From a virus, in the IMG/VR virus record IMGVR_UViG_3300037587_000312, positions 1 through 32,551 of that record: a DNA stretch of 32,551 nucleotides. One strand, 5' to 3'. Shown here one piece after another: positions 4,023 through 20,014 of this stretch. Within the stretch, counting starts at the first letter, position 1. The number at the start of each line of letters is the position of its first letter. A program made the translations under genes and the position numbers. Under the pieces are notes generated by a model, which was not told the origin of the DNA, did not search any database, and worked only from the letters and a program-made list of their open reading frames with translations.

Positions 4023-4535
4023 TTACTTCCTCTTATCATTAAAATATAATGGTACGATCACTTTGTCCACGTAAAGGTTAATAGCATCTCTCTTTAATTT
4101 AATCAATGTGGTATCAATCCCCTCTTCTCTCAATTTACTCAGGATGGTAACTAACCTCCACCTCTTAAGTCTTTTCCTCCACATATCAACCTCTGTGTGG
4201 TGTAGAGGGTTATTAGAAAAATCTTGGTCCATATAGTCGGCACAATTCCTGAGGAATTCACTAAATGTTAAGTGGGTATTTTTATTGCCATACTTGTTCC
4301 AGTATTTTTCCAAACGCCCTAAAAGCATATTACTTGTATTACTTAAAACACCTCTTACTCGACCACACTCAGAATTATCCTCCCCTTTACGGGGGATATC
4401 ATGAGAATGGTCAAGACAGGATCTTGTTTTCGTATTCGTATCTAAAGGAACTTCAAAGAGTGGACATATTCCGTCTACTTTCTCTTTCTCCTTATCACGA
4501 TAATCTTTTATTTGGCTCTTCTTTAATATCTTCAC
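4023..4535 (-). CDS. Endonuclease VII-like (HNH/beta-beta-alpha-metal) nuclease, degenerate zinc site
   Basis: The core reads CLDHSHD...GRVRGVLSNTSNMLLG, matching the recombination endonuclease VII family (T4 gp49 type), which cuts Holliday junctions and branched DNA before packaging. The catalytic D42-H43 and N69 are kept. The zinc knuckles are not: the family's CxxC pairs appear as C24...F27 and S65...S68, so three of four zinc ligands are gone. The start is GTG, overlapping the previous stop as GTGA. Length 170 aa is close to T4 endonuclease VII (157 aa). It neighbours a RuvC-like resolvase and a FEN exonuclease, forming a DNA-processing cassette. Confidence 0.72.
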   Translation of the reverse strand: MKILKKSQIKDYRDKEKEKVDGICPLFEVPLDTNTKTRSCLDHSHDIPRKGEDNSECGRVRGVLSNTSNMLLGRLEKYWNKYGNKNTHLTFSEFLRNCADYMDQDFSNNPLHHTEVDMWRKRLKRWRLVTILSKLREEGIDTTLIKLKRDAINLYVDKVIVPLYFNDKRK

Positions 4536-5122
4536 TGAAGTTTCTTATGAAAATAGAGACCTAGTAAGAATGAATCAGCTGCATCATCTAATCCGGCACT
4601 CTTTCCACTCATCTTCAGTCCCTCTAAGAAAGGACTACCACCAGCATGAATAGCAGCTTCAACCATCTTCTTCTTATCCATTTTAACCAGCTTCGGCTTA
4701 CCTGCTTTAGTAAAACCGTCAAACTGTTCATCTTCTGGTAAGAACTTTCTGGCAAAAGCTTTCAAGGTTGTCGGTGTAACCTTATAGATGTTATTTACGT
4801 CAATCCCCGAAGTAGAAATTAATCTCTCAACTAAGGCTCCATAAAGGCAGGCTAGGTCTCGAGTTGCATTACCTACACTACCGAAAGAGAGTGATTCGAA
4901 AATAACTTCACTAGCACCCCAACCATTAACAACAGAATGAAGCTCACTTGCTAAGAAATGGATCTGCTCCTCAGTTGTGTCGAAATAAGTAACTCCTTCA
5001 TACTTAGTTTTAACCTTGGCGTTACCAGATTTAAATATTCCACTCTCAAGGGCTTCCCCTTTAGACCAGATAGTCCAAGCACATTTGCCAAGACTCTGGT
5101 CTACAGATAGTACATTAGTCAT
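4532..5122 (-). CDS. RuvC-like Holliday junction resolvase (RNase H fold)
   Basis: Residues 4-18 (VLSVDQSLGKCAWTI) match the first beta strand of the RuvC/RNase H fold with catalytic D8. A second acidic residue is in VIFES (E76) and the C-terminal acid cluster is LDDAAD (about 178-183), so the DEDD-type set looks complete. The ATG at 5122 is preferred over an upstream TTG because a GAG site lies eight bases before it. It overlaps the FEN gene by eight bases. It probably resolves four-way junctions during recombination or packaging; having it beside an endonuclease VII-like gene suggests partial redundancy. Confidence 0.75.
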   Translation of the reverse strand: MTNVLSVDQSLGKCAWTIWSKGEALESGIFKSGNAKVKTKYEGVTYFDTTEEQIHFLASELHSVVNGWGASEVIFESLSFGSVGNATRDLACLYGALVERLISTSGIDVNNIYKVTPTTLKAFARKFLPEDEQFDGFTKAGKPKLVKMDKKKMVEAAIHAGGSPFLEGLKMSGKSAGLDDAADSFLLGLYFHKKLQ

Positions 5123-6218
5123 ATGTAATCTCAAATTTATCTAGAACTTTTCGGACATCTAAACTATCATCTTTCCATCGCTGCATAAATGCACAAGTAG
5201 CCTGCATCTGCATCCACTCGACAGGTTTAATATCCATCTCAGTCTTCTCCCACGCCTCATACTGAAGTCCAGTTGGGAACCAATCATGGTAGACCTCTAC
5301 GATTCTTTCCCAATATTCTTTATCGGTTTTACAATCAACGAGGTCATCAAAAGCTGATTTCTTACCATACCCCTTTATCAAGCCATCTGTGGGACTATAC
5401 CCATCAGTTGGATCTCCGAAAAGAATCTGATAATAAAGCCAAGCTCTTCCGTGTCCTTTTGGTTCACCCTTTGGTGTCAGGTATAACTCACCTAGTCCAT
5501 TAATAATCAATGGTTCAGGATAAACAAACTTACCACCAGAACTAGTTGTTGGGTTATTCAATTGACCATCTGTGCTCCGTGCATCTTTATCCACACAGGA
5601 TACAATGGTTGTATGTTTGCCCGTTTCCAAGAAACCAAGATGACCATTATATTGATAGATTGACAGTTGATCGTCAGCTTCAATACCTGTACAGACTTCA
5701 GCTTTCTTAATATTAGTTAAATACTCTCGAGTTTCATTCAGCAAAAGAGGCTTATGAGATCCTTCACGGTTCCATTTATACTTCTTCGGCATTAGAAGTT
5801 TATGACGGAAATTCTCCCCTGTACCCATAACAATGTGGGTCTTTTGCTGACCCAAATGTTTCTCAATGCTCTTGATTTTCTGCTTAACTGAATGAAGACA
5901 ATTCTCAATAGAGTCTGCCTCATATTTCTCTTCGAGAATGAATTCCTTTAATTCAAAAGGTTTCTGGTCTCTCTCTACCCTACTCTTATTCAAATCCCCG
6001 AGCCAACCACCAAGAGTCTTCTTGCTACGACCTTGGAACTCAGTTTTATTCTTAAAGATTTTCTCCGTCTTACTTGGTTTGTGTGTAACGACAACAGTTT
6101 TCTTTTCACAAGCCGCAGCTATCACAAAGGATAACATATCTCCATCAGCGTAATGAGTTCGATCTTCTTCTATTGCATCTTCATCTACATATACTTCTCG
6201 TTGTGCTCTAGGTTTCAT
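5115..6218 (-). CDS. 5'-3' exonuclease / flap endonuclease (FEN family)
   Basis: The motifs of phage 5' nucleases (T5 D15, T7 gp6) appear in order: YADGDML (D25, D27), GIEADDQ (E180, D182, D183), TIVSCVDKDA (D210, D212) and ILFGDPTDGY (D269, D272), followed by the helix-hairpin-helix-like GLIKGYGKKSA at about 279-289. These acids bind two metal ions and the helix-hairpin-helix binds DNA. Length 367 aa is typical. The role is removal of RNA primers and flaps or processing of recombining ends. Its last codons overlap the resolvase gene start. Confidence 0.88.
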   Translation of the reverse strand: MKPRAQREVYVDEDAIEEDRTHYADGDMLSFVIAAACEKKTVVVTHKPSKTEKIFKNKTEFQGRSKKTLGGWLGDLNKSRVERDQKPFELKEFILEEKYEADSIENCLHSVKQKIKSIEKHLGQQKTHIVMGTGENFRHKLLMPKKYKWNREGSHKPLLLNETREYLTNIKKAEVCTGIEADDQLSIYQYNGHLGFLETGKHTTIVSCVDKDARSTDGQLNNPTTSSGGKFVYPEPLIINGLGELYLTPKGEPKGHGRAWLYYQILFGDPTDGYSPTDGLIKGYGKKSAFDDLVDCKTDKEYWERIVEVYHDWFPTGLQYEAWEKTEMDIKPVEWMQMQATCAFMQRWKDDSLDVRKVLDKFEITYD

Positions 6219-11107: not shown

Positions 11108-11458
11108 CTAGACCAGTTCAATCCATACAACAGCGGGTTTGTGTGTCTTTGCCAATGCATGCAGTCGCGCATTACCTTTGACAATCTTATTTTTCTTCAT
11201 ATCAATCTGGATTGGTCGTTTAGGGGCATCAAAAGTCCGAGTATCACTCTTCCGTGCCATCACATCTACACTCCGGTATTTACTACTCGGTAATACTGGA
11301 TGCTCCAGCTTATCGAGAAGCATACCCGCTTTCTCAGCAGTAATCAAGTAATACTTACATCCGTGTGCATCTCGATGAAGGCTCGGAGTGAGATATTTCT
11401 CCACGTTGAACTTGAAGGTCATGCTTTTGATAACTGAATTAATAATCTTTTTCATCAT
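11108..11458 (-). CDS. Hypothetical protein, 116 aa, with ParB-like C-terminal strand pattern
   Basis: The C-terminal part reads IQIDMKKNKIVKGNARLHALAK followed by PAVVWIELV. The arrangement 'I-x-hydrophobic-D...I-x-x-G-x-x-R-L-x-A' then a beta strand resembles the ParB/sulfiredoxin-type domain (IVDGxHRLxA). The nuclease or CTP-binding residues cannot be judged by eye. It overlaps the first gene of the operon by four bases (ATGA type). Call is tentative. Confidence 0.6.
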   Translation of the reverse strand: MMKKIINSVIKSMTFKFNVEKYLTPSLHRDAHGCKYYLITAEKAGMLLDKLEHPVLPSSKYRSVDVMARKSDTRTFDAPKRPIQIDMKKNKIVKGNARLHALAKTHKPAVVWIELV

Positions 11459-11952: not shown

Positions 11953-13272
11953 ATGAATAAAGTTTATTACAATTACTACTATAGAGCACCTATATATATG
12001 AAAGATCTTAAGAAGAAAATAAAGGGTTTGTACTTGAGTAATCTTGACTATGTTCCAAGAGAAATTGAGTCTACTATCTCATGCTTCTGTTACAACCTAA
12101 TCAGGATGGTTAAGTTTGAATATGATCTTTGTCATATCATTATGAAGAGGAGTGGTAGAGTTCCTCGAGCTATTGTGAATGGAGAGGTGATTTGTAAACC
12201 ACCTAGTCAAACGAATACTGTCAATTTAGTGGCGTTGCTCGATAGGCTAGATCTCTTATACCTCTACAAAGGGTACAATGTCCACAGTGATTGTAAAGAA
12301 TTATCATATTTTTGCTTATCGGATGAACTGATTGATATGGTAAAGACAAATGTCAATCTATCACGGGTCAGGATTCAGCCCTATGAAGATGTTGTTATCC
12401 TTAAGAATGAAGATAAGAAACAGATTGAATATCTCAGAACACCGAAAACAAGAGGGATGATAAAGCAGGTAAGGGATTTCAATAAGGTTCTCTTGTCCCA
12501 TGATATACGGTGTGAGGGTGAATCTGTAACAGTCTCATTCAAGCGGGTGTTTAATAACAACAGTTTTGAATTGGGTGGTAGATTCTATACACACTCAGGA
12601 GAGATCCAGACAGTTTCATCCAACAAGCGGAAACTTATTTTGATTGATGGAGAAAAGGCAGGAGAGGCAGACTTCAAGGCATTGCATTTGAGCCTATTGT
12701 ATGAACTGTGTGGAGAACATATGCTCGAGGGATTTGATCCATATAATGCTAACCTGACACGATGTGCCAGAGTATTCCCTGATGAGATAGCCCAGTTTGT
12801 TGCTGACAATAACTTGGATACCAGCTATAATCCTATCAGAAATCTGTGTAAGATTGCTTCGTTGATCATGGTCAATTCAAAGAATGATAGAGAGACAGTA
12901 GCAGCTCTTCGTACTAAAGTGTTGAAAGATATGAGAAAGAAGGGAACATCAGATGATAGGGAAAGAGTATTTGTGGGTCTTGATTTCCAGAATGCTAAAT
13001 TAGATAAAATCATTGAGGCATTATCAGAACATAATAAAAGTATTGACCAGTACTTCAATTCAGGGTATGGTGTGAATCTTCAGTACCAAGATTCCCAGAT
13101 CATGTCGGGAGTGATACAGGATTTCATCGAAGCAGGTAAGGTCTGTATCCCAGTACATGATTCGGCTATCACTAAGAAAAGTGATATATCTTTCTTGATA
13201 GAGTCCATGCACAGCAACTATGAACGTGTCATGGGTAGTAAAAATAACTGTTTTGTGGAGGTGAAGTGGTGA
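11953..13272 (+). CDS. Putative single-subunit palm-domain polymerase (PolA/T7 RNA polymerase-like)
   Basis: No name is certain, but three polymerase motifs of the PolA/T7-RNAP superfamily occur in order and with reasonable spacing. Motif A-like GEADFKALHLSLLY holds D240. Motif B-like NPIRNLCKIASLIMVNS holds R296 and K300. Motif C-like IPVHDSA holds H402-D403-S404, preceded by YQDSQIMSGVIQDF, which recalls the SQDGSHL segment before HDS in T7 RNA polymerase. At 439 aa it is half the size of T7 RNA polymerase and lacks room for an exonuclease domain; residues 1-200 match nothing I know. It heads the rightward operon. It could be a DNA polymerase, RNA polymerase or primer synthase. The start ATG has GGAG twelve bases upstream, rather far; an ATG at codon 16 is an alternative. 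Confidence 0.62.
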   Translation: MNKVYYNYYYRAPIYMKDLKKKIKGLYLSNLDYVPREIESTISCFCYNLIRMVKFEYDLCHIIMKRSGRVPRAIVNGEVICKPPSQTNTVNLVALLDRLDLLYLYKGYNVHSDCKELSYFCLSDELIDMVKTNVNLSRVRIQPYEDVVILKNEDKKQIEYLRTPKTRGMIKQVRDFNKVLLSHDIRCEGESVTVSFKRVFNNNSFELGGRFYTHSGEIQTVSSNKRKLILIDGEKAGEADFKALHLSLLYELCGEHMLEGFDPYNANLTRCARVFPDEIAQFVADNNLDTSYNPIRNLCKIASLIMVNSKNDRETVAALRTKVLKDMRKKGTSDDRERVFVGLDFQNAKLDKIIEALSEHNKSIDQYFNSGYGVNLQYQDSQIMSGVIQDFIEAGKVCIPVHDSAITKKSDISFLIESMHSNYERVMGSKNNCFVEVKW

Positions 13273-13496
13273 GTAAAAATGATATTGATTATGAAATGCT
13301 GGAGCGTCGTATAGATCGCTTCATTGTCTTGAGTAAGAGTGATCTAAGCATGGCTATGGTGGGGAGCCTGCTTGGTTGTCTGGCCACCAGTTATAAAATT
13401 CCAGAGAAGGAGGTCTGGAGTATCTTCAACAAAAGACATAAAAAGATAGACCATGAAGCCAGTGAAGTGTACTTCGATATCGAGGAGTTGAAATGA
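13269..13496 (+). CDS. Hypothetical protein, 75 aa
   Basis: The GTG at 13269 is preferred since GGAGG ends seven bases before it; a GTG one codon upstream is too close. The gene overlaps the end of the polymerase-like gene, so both are co-translated. The product is helical (MSKNDIDYEMLERRIDRFIV...) with no known motif. It may act with the polymerase-like protein, on position alone. Confidence 0.65.
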   Translation: MSKNDIDYEMLERRIDRFIVLSKSDLSMAMVGSLLGCLATSYKIPEKEVWSIFNKRHKKIDHEASEVYFDIEELK

Positions 13497-16150: not shown

Positions 16151-16234
16151 GGTGTCGTTGGACAGGTGATGAGTCCCTCAGGTTGTAACCCTGACGCGCA
16201 AGCTGTGTAGGTTTGATTCCTACCGGCACCACCA
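16151..16234 (+). tRNA. tRNA-Tyr(GTA)
   Basis: Acceptor GGTGTCG pairs with CGGCACC; anticodon loop TTGTAAC gives GTA; T-arm GTAGG/CCTAC with loop TTTGATT. The long variable arm expected of bacterial tRNA-Tyr is present. CCA is encoded. Confidence 0.93.
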
Positions 16235-16265
16235 AATTTTAAATAGTTTAAAGTCTTTACTTTAC

Positions 16266-16294
16266 TTGAGTTCTGCATTACGGTAGTTTATGAT
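16266..16294 (+). promoter_or_regulatory. Possible sigma70 promoter before the nuclease gene
   Basis: TTGAGT, 17-nt spacer, TATGAT, 25 bases before the ATG of the PD-(D/E)XK gene. The hexamers are imperfect but the spacing is ideal. Confidence 0.4.
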
Positions 16295-16318
16295 CAGGTA
16301 AGACACAAGCACAATGAG

Positions 16319-16720
16319 ATGTGTAAAGTGGAAAATAAAGATCAAGGTAATCTCGGTGAAGCTTATGCTATCTACAAGCTCACTGAACTAGGATATAAGT
16401 TGTCAAAACCCCTTATCGAGAATATTGGGTATGACCTTATAGCAGACTTAAATGGAGTTCTTTATAGGATTCAGGTTAAGTCTTCATCCTACAGCAGGTT
16501 TGAAGGGTTATATGATGTCGCTTTAGCGACGAGGGGAGGCAATAGATCTGGGGTAGGGAAGAGTAAGAACATCTCATCTCTTAATTGCGATTATGTGTTC
16601 ATATACACAGCACCTAAGTCCTACTTAATCCCAATACAGCCTATTGACGGACAAGGTTCCGTTCGAGTCGGCGGTAAGGGGACAAAAGATTACGAAATTA
16701 GAGAGGAGATTATGATATGA
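16319..16720 (+). CDS. PD-(D/E)XK endonuclease-like protein inside the tRNA cluster
   Basis: 133 aa. Residues 11-54 carry the nuclease core: NLGEAYAIYKLTELGY (E14), YDLIAD (D39) and RIQVKSSS (Q52, K54). This E...D...QxK arrangement is that of the PD-(D/E)XK family close to group I-intron endonuclease I-SspI (PDDEXK_5). Such enzymes cut double-stranded DNA; free-standing ones behave as homing nucleases. No intron is seen in the neighbouring tRNAs. The ribosome binding site is poor (GAG close to ATG). The position between tRNA genes suggests insertion by homing. Confidence 0.75.
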   Translation: MCKVENKDQGNLGEAYAIYKLTELGYKLSKPLIENIGYDLIADLNGVLYRIQVKSSSYSRFEGLYDVALATRGGNRSGVGKSKNISSLNCDYVFIYTAPKSYLIPIQPIDGQGSVRVGGKGTKDYEIREEIMI

Positions 16721-16875
16721 TGTATGAACTGAAACCAACAGCTATGGTATTTGCAGGAGCAATTGCATTGGCTGTATCAGGTAATTCATTGACAACATTA
16801 GCAGGAACACTGTTGACAGTTGCTGGAGTCATGGTCTACCATATGCGTATTAATCAACGCAAGCAACAACATTAA
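16717..16875 (+). CDS. Small membrane protein, 52 aa
   Basis: GAGAGGAG stands upstream of a row of ATG codons; the stop of the nuclease gene overlaps. Two hydrophobic stretches (about 8-21 and 26-42) rich in Ala, Gly and Thr, then a basic tail (RINQRKQQH). It ends immediately before tRNA-Phe. Function unknown. Confidence 0.6.
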   Translation: MMYELKPTAMVFAGAIALAVSGNSLTTLAGTLLTVAGVMVYHMRINQRKQQH

Positions 16876-16952
16876 GGGTCTGTAGCTCAGTTTGGCAGAG
16901 CGCGGGGGTGAAATTCCCGAGGCCACTGGTTCGAAGCCAGTTGGACCCACCA
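16876..16952 (+). tRNA. tRNA-Phe(GAA)
   Basis: Acceptor GGGTCTG with TTGGACCC side (two G-U pairs), anticodon loop GTGAAAT (GAA), T-arm CTGG/CCAG with TTCGAAG loop, CCA encoded. It starts directly after the stop of the 52-aa gene. Confidence 0.92.
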
Positions 16953-16960
16953 ATTATTAT

Positions 16961-17038
16961 CGGGGATTAGCTCAGTCTGGCCAGAGTGTACCGTTTGGGG
17001 CGGTAAAGTCGAAGGTTCGAATCCTTCATTCCCGACCA
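16961..17038 (+). tRNA. tRNA-Pro(TGG)
   Basis: CGGGGAT pairs with ATTCCCG; anticodon arm TACCG-TTTGGGG-CGGTA gives TGG; T-arm GAAGG/CCTTC; CCA encoded. C1-G72 is typical of bacterial tRNA-Pro. Confidence 0.93.
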
Positions 17039-17045
17039 GTTTTAT

Positions 17046-17123
17046 AGCGGATTAGCTCAGGGGAATAAGAGCAACTCTCTACGAAAGAGTAGGTCATAGG
17101 TTCGAATCCTATATTCGCTGCCA
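17046..17123 (+). tRNA. tRNA-Arg(ACG)
   Basis: AGCGGAT pairs with ATTCGCT; anticodon arm ACTCT-CTACGAA-AGAGT gives ACG, whose A34 would need the host TadA deaminase to become inosine. T-arm ATAGG/CCTAT. CCA encoded. Confidence 0.92.
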
Positions 17124-17153
17124 GTTTATAAATAGATTTGAGGAGGTCTAAAA

Positions 17154-17297
17154 ATGGAAAAAGTACCACATAGAGATGTTGACGGTAACCTAGTTATGCT
17201 GTACCCTTACAAGTCATGGACATCATACATTTCTGAAGATGTTTGGGCAGTACTTATCTTTGTAGGAATGTGCAGTTTTATTTATTCTGTAGCGTAA
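17154..17297 (+). CDS. Small membrane-anchored protein, 47 aa
   Basis: A strong TGAGGAGGT ribosome binding site precedes the ATG. The N-terminal half is polar (MEKVPHRDVDGNLVMLYPYK), the C-terminal half one hydrophobic helix (VWAVLIFVGMCSFIYSV). It sits between tRNA-Arg and tRNA-Ile. Function unknown. Confidence 0.6.
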   Translation: MEKVPHRDVDGNLVMLYPYKSWTSYISEDVWAVLIFVGMCSFIYSVA

Positions 17298-17305
17298 AGT
17301 TTAAT

Positions 17306-17381
17306 ACTAGGATAGCTCAGTTGGTAGAGCAGAGTCTTGATAAGGCTTTGGTCGGTGGTTCAAGTCCACCTCTTAGTACCA
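17306..17381 (+). tRNA. tRNA-Ile(GAT)
   Basis: ACTAGGA pairs with TCTTAGT; anticodon loop TTGATAA gives GAT; T-arm GGTGG/CCACC with TTCAAGT; CCA encoded. Two wobble pairs in the anticodon stem. Confidence 0.92.
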
Positions 17382-17428
17382 ATTTTAAGTGTTTAACGCC
17401 TTCTTACACTATAACTATAGAGGCCAAA

Positions 17429-17440
17429 GCACTTCGGTGC
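17429..17440 (+). other. UUCG-capped hairpin between tRNAs
   Basis: GCAC-TTCG-GTGC is a very stable UUCG tetraloop hairpin, ten bases ahead of tRNA-Asp. There is no T-run of terminator length. It may be a processing or stability signal. Confidence 0.4.
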
Positions 17441-17449
17441 CAAGTTTTA

Positions 17450-17525
17450 GCTTTATTAGTGTAGTGGTCGATCACGCTGGCCTGTCACGCCGGAAACAGC
17501 AGTTCAATTCTGCTATAGAGCGCCA
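17450..17525 (+). tRNA. tRNA-Asp(GTC)
   Basis: GCTTTAT pairs with ATAGAGC; anticodon arm CTGGC-CTGTCAC-GCCGG gives GTC; T-arm AGCAG/CTGCT; discriminator G, as in bacterial tRNA-Asp; CCA encoded. Confidence 0.92.
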
Positions 17526-17534
17526 AATAGCTAT

Positions 17535-17652
17535 ACAAGAGTACGTACCAAGTACTACTGTAATTTAGTGTATAAAGCAAGTCTCCTCGGAGAGCACTAG
17601 ACCCGCATCCTCGGATGTGACCAACCAAAGAGTGGTTATAAAGAGTTCTTGT
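17535..17652 (+). ncRNA. Candidate structured RNA A (multi-hairpin block)
   Basis: The block is closed by ACAAGA (17535-17540) with TCTTGT (17647-17652). Inside are AGTAC/GTACT (17540-17556, sharing A17540 with the closing helix), TCTC-CTCG-GAGA (17582-17593), GCATC-CTCG-GATGT (17605-17618) and AACCA-AAGAG-TGGTT (17623-17637). Two hairpins share the loop CTCG. No coding frame or tRNA fits. Pairings are seen in sequence; existence as a stable RNA is inference. Confidence 0.45.
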
Positions 17653-17657
17653 TTAAA

Positions 17658-17745
17658 TGATAGTGTTTAGGTGGACTGTTGTAGCAGGCTCATCGTATGT
17701 GGGAGTTTATATTCTCCATCTATCAAAAGTAGGTAACCGCTACAA
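17658..17745 (+). ncRNA. Candidate structured RNA B (possible pseudoknot)
   Basis: TGATAG (17658-17663) pairs with CTATCA (17720-17725), while TTGTAGC (17679-17685), inside that loop, pairs perfectly with GCTACAA (17739-17745) outside it. The two helices cross, as in an H-type pseudoknot. TAGCAGGCT after the second helix start recurs in block C. No gene is visible here. Confidence 0.4.
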
Positions 17746-17800
17746 AGGGACGAACTTTAGGCAAATATATACGTTCAGTTGAAAAGATGTTTATTTCTAG

Positions 17801-17828
17801 TTGACATCTACGGGAAAGCTGATATACT
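17801..17828 (+). promoter_or_regulatory. Sigma70 promoter inside the tRNA cluster
   Basis: Perfect TTGACA, 16-nt spacer, TATACT. Predicted start near 17835, just before structured block C, which has no ribosome binding site or coding frame. This suggests a dedicated transcript for the RNA block and the tRNAs that follow. Confidence 0.7.
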
Positions 17829-17848
17829 AGGACTTAGTAATTGAGTTT

Positions 17849-17984
17849 ACTTAAGGAAGATAGGATTTTAGCAGGCTGTTCGGCGGAAGCGCCTAATGTA
17901 GCTAACTAAAGGTTCCCACTGTAGGTGAGGTAGGTTGATCGCTCCCACTACACTATGTTCGAATCATAGAATCTTCCCTTAAGT
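17849..17984 (+). ncRNA. Candidate structured RNA C with tRNA-like ends
   Basis: ACTTAAGGAAGAT (17849-17861) pairs over 13 bp with ATCTTCCCTTAAGT (17971-17984), one bulged C. Just inside the 3' strand is a perfect T-arm: CTATG, loop TTCGAAT, CATAG (17953-17969). The interior is not tRNA-like: TTAGC/GCTAA (17868-17872, 17901-17905), AGGC/GCCT, and a GGCG-GAAG-CGCC hairpin. No anticodon arm and no CCA are visible. The acceptor plus T-arm outline recalls tmRNA or RNase P substrates. A promoter lies 20 bases upstream. Confidence 0.5.
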
Positions 17985-18001
17985 GAATTTGACAAGTTTA
18001 C

Positions 18002-18078
18002 CCCTCGGTAGCTTAGCGGTCCAAAGCAGTCGCCTTTTAAGCGATTGATCGAAGGTTCAAATCCTTCTCGGGGGACCA
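18002..18078 (+). tRNA. tRNA-Lys(TTT)
   Basis: CCCTCGG pairs with TCGGGGG (one T-G and one G-T); anticodon arm GTCGC-CTTTTAA-GCGAT gives TTT; T-arm GAAGG/CCTTC; CCA encoded. Confidence 0.92.
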
Positions 18079-18085
18079 ATTTTAA

Positions 18086-18162
18086 TGCGAGTTAGCTCAG
18101 TTGGTTAGAGCACCGGGTTCATATCCCGATTGTCACTGGTTCAAGTCCAGTATTCGCAACCA
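18086..18162 (+). tRNA. tRNA-Met(CAT)
   Basis: TGCGAGT pairs with ATTCGCA; anticodon arm CCGGG-TTCATAT-CCCGA gives CAT. The three G-C pairs next to the loop are an initiator hallmark, yet 1-72 is a T-A pair and the D-stem (GCTC/GAGC) is of elongator type. It could be elongator Met, initiator-like Met, or Ile(CAT) after lysidine modification. CCA encoded. Confidence 0.88.
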
Positions 18163-18177
18163 TTTAAGGAGTTAGTT

Positions 18178-18303
18178 ATGCTCAGAAGATTTTTGTGTTA
18201 TATCGGTTTACACGATTATGAAGAAGTAGCTGACTCAGGTGGAGATCCACCAGCTCGTGCCTATTTATGTAGAGCATGTGACAAATTAGATATTAAATAT
18301 TAG
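18178..18303 (+). CDS. Small CxxC protein, 41 aa
   Basis: AAGGAGTTAG precedes the ATG. The product has C7 and a CRAC motif (residues 31-34) near the C-terminus, with a basic start (MLRRFLCYIGLHDYEE). A half zinc finger is possible. It lies between tRNA-Met and tRNA-Gln. Confidence 0.55.
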   Translation: MLRRFLCYIGLHDYEEVADSGGDPPARAYLCRACDKLDIKY

Positions 18304-18325
18304 AGAATAAGAAAGGTAACTTACT

Positions 18326-18367
18326 ATGTACGAACGAGAGACACAACAACAGGACCAAGGCGTCTAG
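18326..18367 (+). CDS. Very short ORF, 13 aa (doubtful)
   Basis: AAAGG lies upstream of ATG at moderate distance; product MYERETQQQDQGV. Its stop is inside the following hairpin. Too short to support as a gene beyond the ribosome binding site; listed for completeness. Confidence 0.2.
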   Translation: MYERETQQQDQGV

Positions 18368-18404
18368 TAGATTACCCAACTATAGAGTTTGGCGTTTCTA
18401 CTAG
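18364..18404 (+). other. 41-nt imperfect hairpin between tRNAs
   Basis: CTAGTAGA pairs perfectly with TCTACTAG; after a 4x4 internal loop CCAACT pairs with AGTTTGG (one bulged T) around an ATAG loop. There is no T-run. A further CATCA/TGATG hairpin (18411-18425) leads into tRNA-Gln. Possible RNA processing element. Confidence 0.45.
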
Positions 18405-18423
18405 TCAAGCCATCATATTTTGA

Positions 18424-18498
18424 TGTGCCTTGGTGAAGTGGAAACACGGTGGGTTTTGACCCCACTATGCAAGGGTTCGATTCCCTTAGGCACGGCCA
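18424..18498 (+). tRNA. tRNA-Gln(TTG)
   Basis: TGTGCCT pairs with AGGCACG (T1-G72, a weak first pair as in tRNA-Gln); anticodon arm GTGGG-TTTTGAC-CCCAC gives TTG; T-arm AAGGG/CCCTT; discriminator G; CCA encoded. Confidence 0.92.
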
Positions 18499-18499
18499 T

Positions 18500-18575
18500 G
18501 CTCATATAGTTTAATTGGTTAGAACATCGCCCTTTCAAGGCGACAGCCCGAGTTCGAGTCTCGGTATGAGTACCA
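18500..18575 (+). tRNA. tRNA-Glu(TTC)
   Basis: GCTCATA pairs with TATGAGT; anticodon arm TCGCC-CTTTCAA-GGCGA gives TTC; T-arm CCGAG/CTCGG; CCA encoded. Only one base separates it from tRNA-Gln. Confidence 0.93.
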
Positions 18576-18583
18576 AATTTTAT

Positions 18584-18659
18584 GCAGGTATAGCTCAATT
18601 GGGAGAGCGTCATCCTTACACGGTGAATGTCAGTGGTTCGATCCCACTTACCTGTACCA
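18584..18659 (+). tRNA. tRNA-Val(TAC)
   Basis: GCAGGTA pairs with TACCTGT; anticodon arm TCATC-CTTACAC-GGTGA gives TAC; T-arm AGTGG/CCACT; CCA encoded. Confidence 0.93.
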
Positions 18660-18670
18660 AACAGTTTTAA

Positions 18671-18744
18671 GCGGGTATAGCTCAGAGGCAGAGCGTTTGG
18701 CTTCCACCCATTGTGCGGGATTTCGAAACTCCCTATCCGCTCCA
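18671..18744 (+). tRNA. tRNA-Gly(TCC)
   Basis: GCGGGTA pairs with TATCCGC; anticodon loop CTTCCAC gives TCC; discriminator T and CCA as in bacterial tRNA-Gly. The anticodon stem TTTGG/CCATT has two T-T mismatches and the T-stem one mismatch, so it may be decaying or poorly stable. Confidence 0.8.
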
Positions 18745-18821
18745 AGTTTTAGGTGCCTACAAGGTTCGAGTGGGTTAAATGTCCGTCTTTGTTGACAGCC
18801 TAGAGTAGTTTTAGAAAGAGG

Positions 18822-18851
18822 TTGACTTATGTATTTAATTTCTGGTATAGT
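18822..18851 (+). promoter_or_regulatory. Promoter overlapping a start codon
   Basis: TTGACT, 18-nt spacer, TATAGT with an extended TGG before it. It overlaps the ribosome binding site and the first codons of the 42-aa gene, so a transcript from it would skip that gene and begin ahead of tRNA(GTT). Confidence 0.5.
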
Positions 18852-18957
18852 TTGCCTCGTTGTTGCTATTTACTTCCATTGGAAACTCAATGATCAAGTT
18901 AGGTTGCAACGGATAGATAAAGAGTTAAAAGAGTTGGATGAAAGTCTGACTTTATAG
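18829..18957 (+). CDS. Small single-pass membrane protein, 42 aa
   Basis: GAGG precedes the ATG by seven bases. Residues 1-17 (MYLISGIVCLVVAIYFH) are a membrane helix; residues 18-42 are a charged, heptad-like helix (QVRLQRIDKELKELDESL). The layout is like small inner-membrane spanin or accessory peptides, with no firm assignment. Confidence 0.58.
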   Translation: MYLISGIVCLVVAIYFHWKLNDQVRLQRIDKELKELDESLTL

Positions 18958-18976
18958 TTTAGAAAGATGTTATTGG

Positions 18977-19062
18977 TCACATGTGGGGGAATTGGTAGAC
19001 CCAGCTGACTGTTAATCAGCCGCTGAAAGGCACTGTAGGTTCGAAGCCTACCTTGTGAGCCA
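18977..19062 (+). tRNA. tRNA with anticodon GTT (Asn) and long variable arm
   Basis: TCACATG pairs with CTTGTGA (one T-T mismatch). Anticodon arm GCTGA-CTGTTAA-TCAGC gives GTT. A 14-nt variable region folds as GCT-GAAA-GGC, and the D-loop GGAATTGGTAGAC is of tRNA-Leu type; T-arm GTAGG/CCTAC; discriminator G; CCA encoded. Class II architecture with an Asn anticodon is unusual (see findings). Confidence 0.9.
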
Positions 19063-19083
19063 ATGACATTTTAAAGTTTTAAT

Positions 19084-19169
19084 GCGAGAGTGGCGGAATT
19101 TGGTAGACGCGCTGGTTTTAGGTACCAGTACCGCAAGGTGTGTGGGTTCGATGCCCTCCTTTCGTACCA
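19084..19169 (+). tRNA. tRNA-Leu(TAG)
   Basis: GCGAGAG pairs with CTTTCGT; anticodon arm CTGGT-TTTAGGT-ACCAG gives TAG; variable arm of class II size; D-loop GGAATTTGGTAGAC; discriminator A, as LeuRS requires; CCA encoded. One T-T mismatch in the T-stem. Confidence 0.92.
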
Positions 19170-19171
19170 TA

Positions 19172-19310
19172 ATAACTGTGTTGTCTGTGACGAACAGGGA
19201 ATGCCCTTGCAGAACAGAACGCGGGTTAGCTGCCGCCTCTTGATGATCTTAGACGGCAACATGGTGACGTTATAGGGTTCGATGTAACTGATTGCAATTT
19301 GCACAGTTAT
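19172..19310 (+). ncRNA. Candidate structured RNA D
   Basis: A perfect 9-bp helix ATAACTGTG (19172-19180) with CACAGTTAT (19302-19310) closes a 139-nt block. Inside are CTGT/ACAG, AGGG-AATG-CCCT, GCGG/CCGC and GCCG/CGGC helices, some mutually exclusive. It begins three bases after tRNA-Leu. A TTCGATG sequence inside lacks a T-stem, so it is not a tRNA. Pairings are visible; function unknown. Confidence 0.48.
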
Positions 19311-19487
19311 CTAGTACTAAATGGGTGATCACTCCGAAAACTGATGCGGGGCACTTGTCTGGATTTAGGGGTTGCAGCTCCTTGGCATCAAAAGGTTGGG
19401 CTTCATCAGTAGCTTTTACTTCTGCAAAGAATTTAGTGATATATCTGACTCACTGGCGCTGATGCTAGAGTAGATCCCTTTCACTTT
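19311..19487 (+). other. Intergenic block with competing helices
   Basis: No gene is visible. ACTGATG (19340-19346) can pair with CATCAGT (19404-19410), and the overlapping TGATGC (19342-19347) with GCATCA (19385-19390), so two helices compete. TGATGC recurs at 19460. This may be a continuation of the neighbouring structured RNA. Confidence 0.35.
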
Positions 19488-19561
19488 GGGGTTGTCGTAT
19501 AATGGTATTACACCTGCCTTGCAAGTAGGTTATAGGAGTTCAATCCTCCTCTTCTCCACCA
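19488..19561 (+). tRNA. tRNA-Ala(TGC)
   Basis: Anticodon arm CCTGC-CTTGCAA-GTAGG gives TGC; T-arm AGGAG/CTCCT; the acceptor GGGGTTG/CTTCTCC has two T-T mismatches but keeps G3-T70, the alanine identity pair. CCA encoded. Confidence 0.9.
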
Positions 19562-19566
19562 AATTT

Positions 19567-19664
19567 TATCTCACCGTGAGAGCATGGGTATTCAAATTGA
19601 TAATCCCACGTAAGGGCGTAGTATCCTCCTAGAGGGTATGAAGTGGCTAAACGTAGATGAGATA
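19567..19664 (+). ncRNA. Candidate structured RNA E
   Basis: TATCTCA (19567-19573) pairs with TGAGATA (19658-19664). Inside are an 8-bp hairpin GTATCCTC-CTA-GAGGGTAT (19621-19639), a GGGTAT...ATAATCCC hairpin, and an alternative CTCA-CCG-TGAG hairpin. It fills the gap between tRNA-Ala and tRNA-Thr. A minus-strand frame over this area is a shadow of the tRNA repeats. Confidence 0.42.
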
Positions 19665-19666
19665 TT

Positions 19667-19742
19667 GCCCGATTAGCTGAGTTGGCTTTAGCAGCTGTTT
19701 TGTAATCAGCAGACGGCGGTTCGAATCCGTCATTGGGCACCA
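19667..19742 (+). tRNA. tRNA-Thr(TGT)
   Basis: GCCCGAT pairs with ATTGGGC; anticodon loop TTTGTAA gives TGT (one T-T pair at the top of the stem); T-arm GGCGG/CCGTC; CCA encoded. Confidence 0.92.
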
Positions 19743-19749
19743 GTTTTAT

Positions 19750-19826
19750 AGGTCGGTGTGTGTAATTGGCAACCTGCCGGATTCCAAATCCGTGCGTTCT
19801 GAGTTCGAGTCTTAGTCGGCCTGCCA
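19750..19826 (+). tRNA. tRNA-Trp(CCA)
   Basis: AGGTCGG pairs with TCGGCCT; anticodon loop TTCCAAA gives CCA; T-arm CTGAG/CTTAG; discriminator G as in E. coli tRNA-Trp; CCA encoded. The D-arm is irregular. Confidence 0.9.
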
Positions 19827-19838
19827 AACAAGTTTTAT

Positions 19839-19931
19839 GGTAGCTTGGCGGAGCGGTTAAATCGCATCGGTCTTGAAAACCGACATTTCCTGAAAGGGGG
19901 ATCGAGAGTTCGAATCTCTCAGCTACTTCCA
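19839..19931 (+). tRNA. tRNA-Ser(TGA)
   Basis: GGTAGCT pairs with AGCTACT; anticodon arm TCGGT-CTTGAAA-ACCGA gives TGA; long variable arm of serine type; T-arm GAGAG/CTCTC. The discriminator is T, not the usual G. CCA encoded. Confidence 0.9.
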
Positions 19932-19937
19932 TACAAT

Positions 19938-20014
19938 GGTGAATAGATGCATACTGGTACGCACCCGGCCTGTGAAGCTGGCGCAAGTGGGTTCGAGACC
20001 CACTATTCACCCCA
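19938..20014 (+). tRNA. tRNA-His(GTG)
   Basis: GTGAATA pairs perfectly with TATTCAC, and the extra G-1 faces C73, the histidine identity pair. Anticodon arm CCGGC-CTGTGAA-GCTGG gives GTG; T-arm GTGGG/CCCAC; CCA encoded. Last tRNA of the cluster. Confidence 0.93.

Follow-up and report, generated by a model that had tools for sequence, protein, structure and literature searches.

The closest described relatives of the protein analysed here are the divPolA2 polymerases, named for tailed phages in a survey limited to Caudoviricetes (Virol J 2024, 21:200; PMC11348598), whose authors reported variable gene neighbourhoods and an N-terminal domain without similarity, and proposed a repair DNA polymerase or an RNA polymerase. 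In our literature search, the name was used only by that paper and its preprint. Two kinds of bacterial mobile elements also serve for comparison: pipolins, which combine a tyrosine recombinase, tRNA att sites, and a self-priming PolB (PMC7385651), and PICMI satellites, which have a core of integrase and primase (PMC10803314).

We analysed a stretch of 32,551 nucleotides (the window) from a virus record of 121,737 bases, and focused on the following gene:

11953..13272, + strand: divPolA2-type palm polymerase gene, 439 aa, open reading frame with an ATG start (PHROG_4756, E 3.9e-82; AlphaFold2 pLDDT 90.7; fold matches to PolA and single-subunit RNA polymerases, ssRNAPs).

Searches of Pfam, NCBIfam, PADLOC, and PDB sequences with the protein returned nothing above noise, and it could be identified because a Foldseek search of PDB and the profile PHROG_4756, itself labelled "unknown function", matched where the sequence databases did not. 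The original prediction had placed the gene at the head of a rightward operon. It opens a rightward run: the neighbour to its left (11108-11458) is encoded by the minus strand, and the following plus-strand gene begins at 13493. No promoter-like site was found upstream of it on the plus strand. A repeat search of the window detected neither inverted nor direct repeats around the gene, and no integrase or att site lies close to it. Elsewhere in the window, 18 phage tRNA genes, which between them serve 18 amino acids, are clustered at positions 16151-20014.

By sequence comparison, the family is divPolA2. A Barba protein also matches phrog_4756 (3e-64), tblastn leads from the window protein to Rheinheimera barbaviruses (E 2e-10), and barbavirus members are found among its relatives. 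The window protein resembles the described divPolA2 (PMC11348598) in size, in a palm without homologous thumb or exonuclease, in the occurrence of one to three paralogs, and in standing beside a regular replicative polymerase. Because divPolA2 was described in 2024, the protein is a fresh member of a known family rather than a new one. Two features differ from the published description: integrative elements of bacteria carry the family as well, and its N-terminus resembles a winged helix.

To characterize the fold, we predicted the structure of the 439-aa protein with AlphaFold2, using an input alignment of 52 sequences drawn solely from the window and the scanned loci, which yielded a model with pLDDT 90.7 and pTM 0.88. 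Every one of the best Foldseek matches in PDB was a family-A DNA polymerase, the top one with E 1.1e-6 and a probability of 1.00, and VIA-align superposed the model on apicoplast Pol (5dkt) with Z 13.1 and rmsd 4.1 over 234 residues, on yeast mitochondrial RNAP with Z 12.3, and on T7 RNAP with Z 12.1; strong matches were confined to family-A DNA polymerases and ssRNAPs. In the model, strand 234-241 ends with D240, and the hairpin 398-401/404-408 carries H402-D403 at its turn, an arrangement that matches motifs A and C of PolA. The polymerase part is delimited as follows:

12379..13269, + strand: palm and fingers core, residues 143-439 (VIA-align Z 13.1 to 5dkt over these residues).

In the best rows, the structural alignment to PolA spans just these residues, with no homologous thumb and no 3' exonuclease. 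Two structure-independent hhalign profile comparisons agree: against 11 bacterial PolA (E 2.2e-4), GGRFY pairs with TGRLSS, D240-FKAL-H245 with DYSQIE, and R296-x3-K300 with motif B, whereas against 7 ssRNAPs (E 3.5e-5) a DS and the HDS pair with the T7 D787 and HDS regions, so that the two E values concern different motif blocks. The Pfam model DNA_pol_A (PF00476) gave no match at E up to 10; PF00940 gave no Pfam match either, and a separate PF00940 search was silent even in controls and uninformative on ssRNAPs. Taken from the model, membership of the PolA/ssRNAP superfamily with a palm fold is almost certain. The original prediction of a minimal protein of about 440 aa from the PolA/T7 RNA polymerase superfamily, lacking an exonuclease domain, was borne out by the model, Foldseek, VIA-align, and hhalign, and the predicted fold does contain a palm domain. 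Model and alignment together describe a palm/fingers polymerase without exonuclease that looks catalytically intact.

The active-site blocks, defined by alignment, hhalign, and block comparison, are the following:

12574..12588, + strand: GGRFY block with invariant R210, resembling TGRLSS of PolA and RGRVY of T7 RNAP (hhalign, block comparison).
12664..12687, + strand: motif A, E238-x-D240-F-K-A-L-H245, with His (45/52) at the Klenow E710 gate position (alignment, hhalign, block comparison).
12736..12744, + strand: D262-P-Y264 (Y264 52/52), resembling DIH of PolA and DIY of ssRNAPs (alignment, block comparison).
12838..12876, + strand: motif B, R296-x3-K300-x3-L304-x3-N308, with Asn (42/52) at the position of Klenow Y766 and T7 RNAP Y639 (alignment, hhalign, block comparison).
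13078..13095, + strand: LQ377-x-x-D380-S block, resembling the Klenow Q849 region and T7 RNAP H784-S-x-D787 (hhalign, block comparison).
13156..13164, + strand: motif C, H402-D403-S404, HDS as in ssRNAPs where PolA has HDE (HD 52/52, S 43/52; hhalign to ssRNAPs E 3.5e-5).

D240, R296/K300, and H402-D403-S404 lie exactly where they had been predicted and form a conserved core among the 52 relatives rather than chance matches: K300, H402, and D403 are kept in 52/52, D240 in 51/52, R296 in 50/52, and S404 in 43/52 (Ala in 9/52). R210, R226, and Y264, which the earlier analysis had not named, are likewise present in 52/52. Like family-A polymerases (PolA, Klenow, apicoplast Pol), divPolA2 has palm and fingers and keeps the equivalents of D705, R754, K758, Q849, and H881-D882, but it lacks the exonuclease and a homologous thumb, and departs from the classical signature (D-x4-E gate, Y766, HDE) by His for E710, Asn for Y766, and HDS for HDE. 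With the ssRNAPs (T7, mitochondrial) it has in common the HDS motif C, the GRxY and DxY blocks, and a fold Z of about 12, and differs from them in being half as long, in carrying Asn and Gln at the T7-type invariants Y639 and H784, and in that no T7-type N-terminal or specificity-loop region was identified; the Gln close to motif C is common with PolA. Judged by these alignments, the divPolA2 active site is a mix of PolA and T7-RNAP features, which is new here. Klenow E710 and Y766 contribute to ribose exclusion, and because these positions are changed to His and Asn, a relaxed sugar choice is plausible for divPolA2.

The N-terminal region had been described as an unknown stretch of 200 aa. 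Part of it resembles a known fold:

12055..12372, + strand: probable winged-helix-like domain, residues 35-140, with helix 38-54, helix 86-98, wing 102-111, and G107 in 49/52 (N-terminal model, structure matches).

Modelled alone, residues 1-206 reached pLDDT 87.8, and the top structural matches of residues 35-140 were winged helices (eS10 with Z 6.9; MarR, Fur, and OhrR with Z of about 6; SarA and PadR) and not an exonuclease. These matches are individually weak (Z at most 6.9, Foldseek E at least 0.03) and mutually consistent, pointing to a likely winged-helix-like DNA-binding domain, newly recognized here.

A rival reading is a compact DNA-dependent RNA polymerase, in which the winged helix would read a promoter of the phage or element and a small gene set would be transcribed by the palm. 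The HDS, GRxY, and DxY blocks shared with T7-like RNAPs, the loss of the PolA gate residues, the VIA-align Z of 12.1-12.3 to T7 and mitochondrial RNAP, and a profile match slightly better to ssRNAPs than to PolA (E 3.5e-5 vs 2.2e-4, for different motif blocks) are consistent with this reading, which was also proposed by the 2024 authors (PMC11348598). Nevertheless, we consider it unlikely: Asn replaces the O-helix Tyr (T7 Y639) and Gln replaces His784, the core comprises about 300 residues compared with at least 800 in ssRNAPs, and the linkage to integrase genes described below is not readily explained by a transcriptase.

We then surveyed the family in phages. Scanning viral contigs with the single protein P0001 gave no match, and a 13-row alignment contained no usable pattern; sub-alignments worked. 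Relatives in 288 phage records belong mainly to Vibrio phages (including ICP1), Rheinheimera barbaviruses, and phages of Aeromonas, Pseudoalteromonas, and Shewanella, with one to three divergent copies per genome, often two or three. The phage of the window also carries a separate full-length PolA, an 859-aa open frame (G000:48178-48804), as does ICP1, and because of this second polymerase we regard the window protein as auxiliary and not as the replicase. Pfam models for PolB and PolIII alpha matched nothing in 12 phage records, the PolB model also missing the barbavirus polymerase, which is called PolB in PMC11348598, so that these negative results carry little weight. In ICP1 isolates, two very different divPolA2 genes (gp100 and a gene called by Prodigal only; L002:7485-8969 and L006:7344-8648) occupy apparently the same position, which suggests allele replacement. 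In Pseudoalteromonas phage J2-1 (L009:7060-8115) and Vibrio phage 277E43-1 (L012:6183-7070), the gene immediately downstream of divPolA2 encodes a homing endonuclease, and in phages 4L372D (L003:9624-9905) and qdvp001 (L004:6883-7128), an XRE-type regulator lies just upstream of divPolA2.

The family is not restricted to phages. A pattern scan of genome contigs revealed 48 loci in bacteria, among them Pseudomonadota, Thermodesulfobacteriota, and Lentisphaerota; among alphaproteobacteria, 29/385 genomes carry divPolA2, one of them in four copies. Within 6 kb of divPolA2, a tyrosine recombinase is encoded at 48/76 loci, and a tRNA or tmRNA gene adjoins the integrase at 34/76, the 76 loci including two overlapping pairs (L090/L170, L100/L169). 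As a background, 151 integrases in about 42 Mb (nine of these genomes) would place one in roughly 5% of such windows by chance, a rate that counts the linked integrases too and that relies on recombinase profiles partly built from the same loci. Pfam confirmed Phage_integrase in 16/125 nearest-neighbour proteins. divPolA2 is common in bacteria, where it repeatedly accompanies a tyrosine integrase in small elements integrated at tRNA genes, a context that is new here; large lytic phages have one to three copies of it. A tree of the palm core separated viral from bacterial copies only partly (3 label changes) and left many deep branches unsupported, and so gives no direction of transfer.

Linkage to a recombinase also speaks for the other proposal of the 2024 authors (PMC11348598), namely a non-proofreading DNA polymerase for repair, gap filling, or lesion bypass, in this case used in recombination or integration. 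Such a role would fit the absent 3'-5' exonuclease domain, the closest Foldseek resemblance of the palm to PolA, and the presence of a replicative PolA elsewhere in the same phage. Site-specific tyrosine recombination, however, leaves no gaps and therefore creates no demand for a polymerase, the host can supply Pol I, and the His and Asn at the E710 and Y766 positions are unusual for a strict DNA polymerase, so that we hold this reading to be rather improbable.

At the level of element boundaries, direct att repeats derived from tRNA 3' ends (about 15-51 bp) bound 13 elements of 5.6-14 kb (L067, L086, L093, L096, L099, L169, L174, L175, L181, L182, L188, L189, and L194). L109, L188, and L194 contain little besides integrase, polymerase, and cargo. 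Several att-bounded elements carry anti-phage cargo. Mad2, PD-Lambda-2, DRT9 (E 4e-213), and restriction-modification proteins (NgoMIV and type I) are encoded by the elements, and serine resolvases make up 5/69 cargo proteins. A single virion-type match, T7 gp14-like, occurs among the 25 most frequent cargo Pfam families, and for this reason the elements do not look like prophages. When empty integration sites were sought in the G209 and G210 families, no contiguous match spanned the joined flanks, the available relatives being too distant. A subset of the elements is tripartite:

L181:8014-15338: att cores direct, inverted, direct; integrase segment with inverted ends of 160 bp; polymerase segment with terminal inverted repeats of 705 bp at 100%.
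L099:3902-13352: att cores direct, inverted, direct; inverted ends of 43 bp; terminal inverted repeats of 765 bp at 97%.
L109:4192-10659: att cores direct, inverted, direct (third core presumed); inverted ends of 80 bp; terminal inverted repeats of 247 bp.
L096:3521-9145: att cores direct, inverted, direct; inverted ends of 90 bp; terminal inverted repeats of 319 bp.

The integrase lies in the first and the polymerase in the second segment. All three cores were detected in L096, L099, and L181; L109 has the same layout, and its third core, which escaped the search, is presumed to sit at the outer tip of the repeat. An assembly error is unlikely for L181 because it lies in a 4.29-Mb contig. Inverted repeats also surround the integrase in L089 and L176, and a 224-bp inverted repeat surrounds the polymerase in L111. 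Recombination from core to core could invert the integrase or the polymerase module. Next to the L194 element, the same tRNA-Leu hosts a neighbouring element (L194:265-5384) that shares this inverted-core layout. It has an integrase at 4166-5305 and a module of 3.5 kb with inverted repeats of 394 bp, but no polymerase was detected in it.

These elements resemble pipolins (PMC7385651) in tRNA integration by tyrosine recombinases, direct att repeats, a polymerase of their own, and variable cargo, but their polymerase is of the PolA/ssRNAP superfamily and not a primer-independent PolB; they are small, and in some of them the central core is inverted and the terminal inverted repeats are long. Like PICMI and other minimal satellites and tycheposons, they are small tRNA-linked islands with an integrase, and PICMI likewise has one replication-type gene; AlpA and the DUF3987/DUF5906 primase, in contrast, are PICMI's, and neither a phage helper nor packaging came to light for the divPolA2 elements. 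No such polymerase is mentioned in the consulted papers covering tycheposons and PICMI (PMC10803314). Our literature search found no description of such bacterial elements, many subscription papers lying beyond its reach.

We therefore tentatively favour, at somewhat less than even confidence, an element-encoded polymerase for priming or replication initiation of mobile DNA, because a polymerase beside an integrase in gene-poor elements resembles pipolins and satellites. In such a mechanism, the N-terminal winged helix would bind a specific origin-like site, where divPolA2 would start nucleic-acid synthesis either by making a primer or by copying from a short or self-made one, and the element or phage could thereby replicate without host primase. 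The changed ribose-gate positions and the ssRNAP-like GRxY, DxY, and HDS blocks also count for this role; no separate primase motif was found, however, the PolA fold does not by itself imply de novo initiation, and the tally of cargo covers the 25 most frequent families, beyond which a second replication gene may occur. We infer the DNA binding, the de novo or ribonucleotide-tolerant initiation, and the replication role itself. Applying the element role to the phage setting is an extrapolation, and it may not carry over because neither an integrase nor an att site lies near the window gene.

The abundance of anti-phage genes in the cargo might also imply a factor in conflicts between phages and elements, with an anti-satellite or anti-defence function and a sequence diversity driven by an arms race. 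The one to three divergent paralogs per phage and the two very different versions at apparently one locus in ICP1 isolates would agree with such a factor. Yet the catalytic residues are all strictly kept, which argues for polymerisation, and no PADLOC family matches the protein itself, making this explanation very unlikely.

Overall, the family behaves as a mobile-DNA enzyme, and its bacterial context favours a polymerase that replicates or primes mobile elements. More speculatively, and less likely than not, divPolA2 might define an undescribed, widespread class of minimal integrative elements in bacteria that combine a self-priming PolA/ssRNAP-type polymerase with a tyrosine integrase targeting tRNA genes and, in many cases, with anti-phage cargo. 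In some of these, the att arrangement would be tripartite: inverted att copies would lie on both sides of the integrase gene, and terminal inverted repeats of up to 765 bp, tipped by the tRNA-derived core, would enclose the polymerase module. Phage copies would have been exchanged with such elements.

The bacterial elements offer a context for testing the function of divPolA2, which was left in 2024 at two guesses. To our knowledge, the role of hallmark replication gene has so far been filled by PolB in pipolins and casposons and by primases in satellites, and our findings suggest that a PolA/T7-RNAP-type enzyme could play this part in small defence-carrying islands. Finally, the evolution of RNA polymerases from PolA-type enzymes is a question to which this intermediate active site is relevant.
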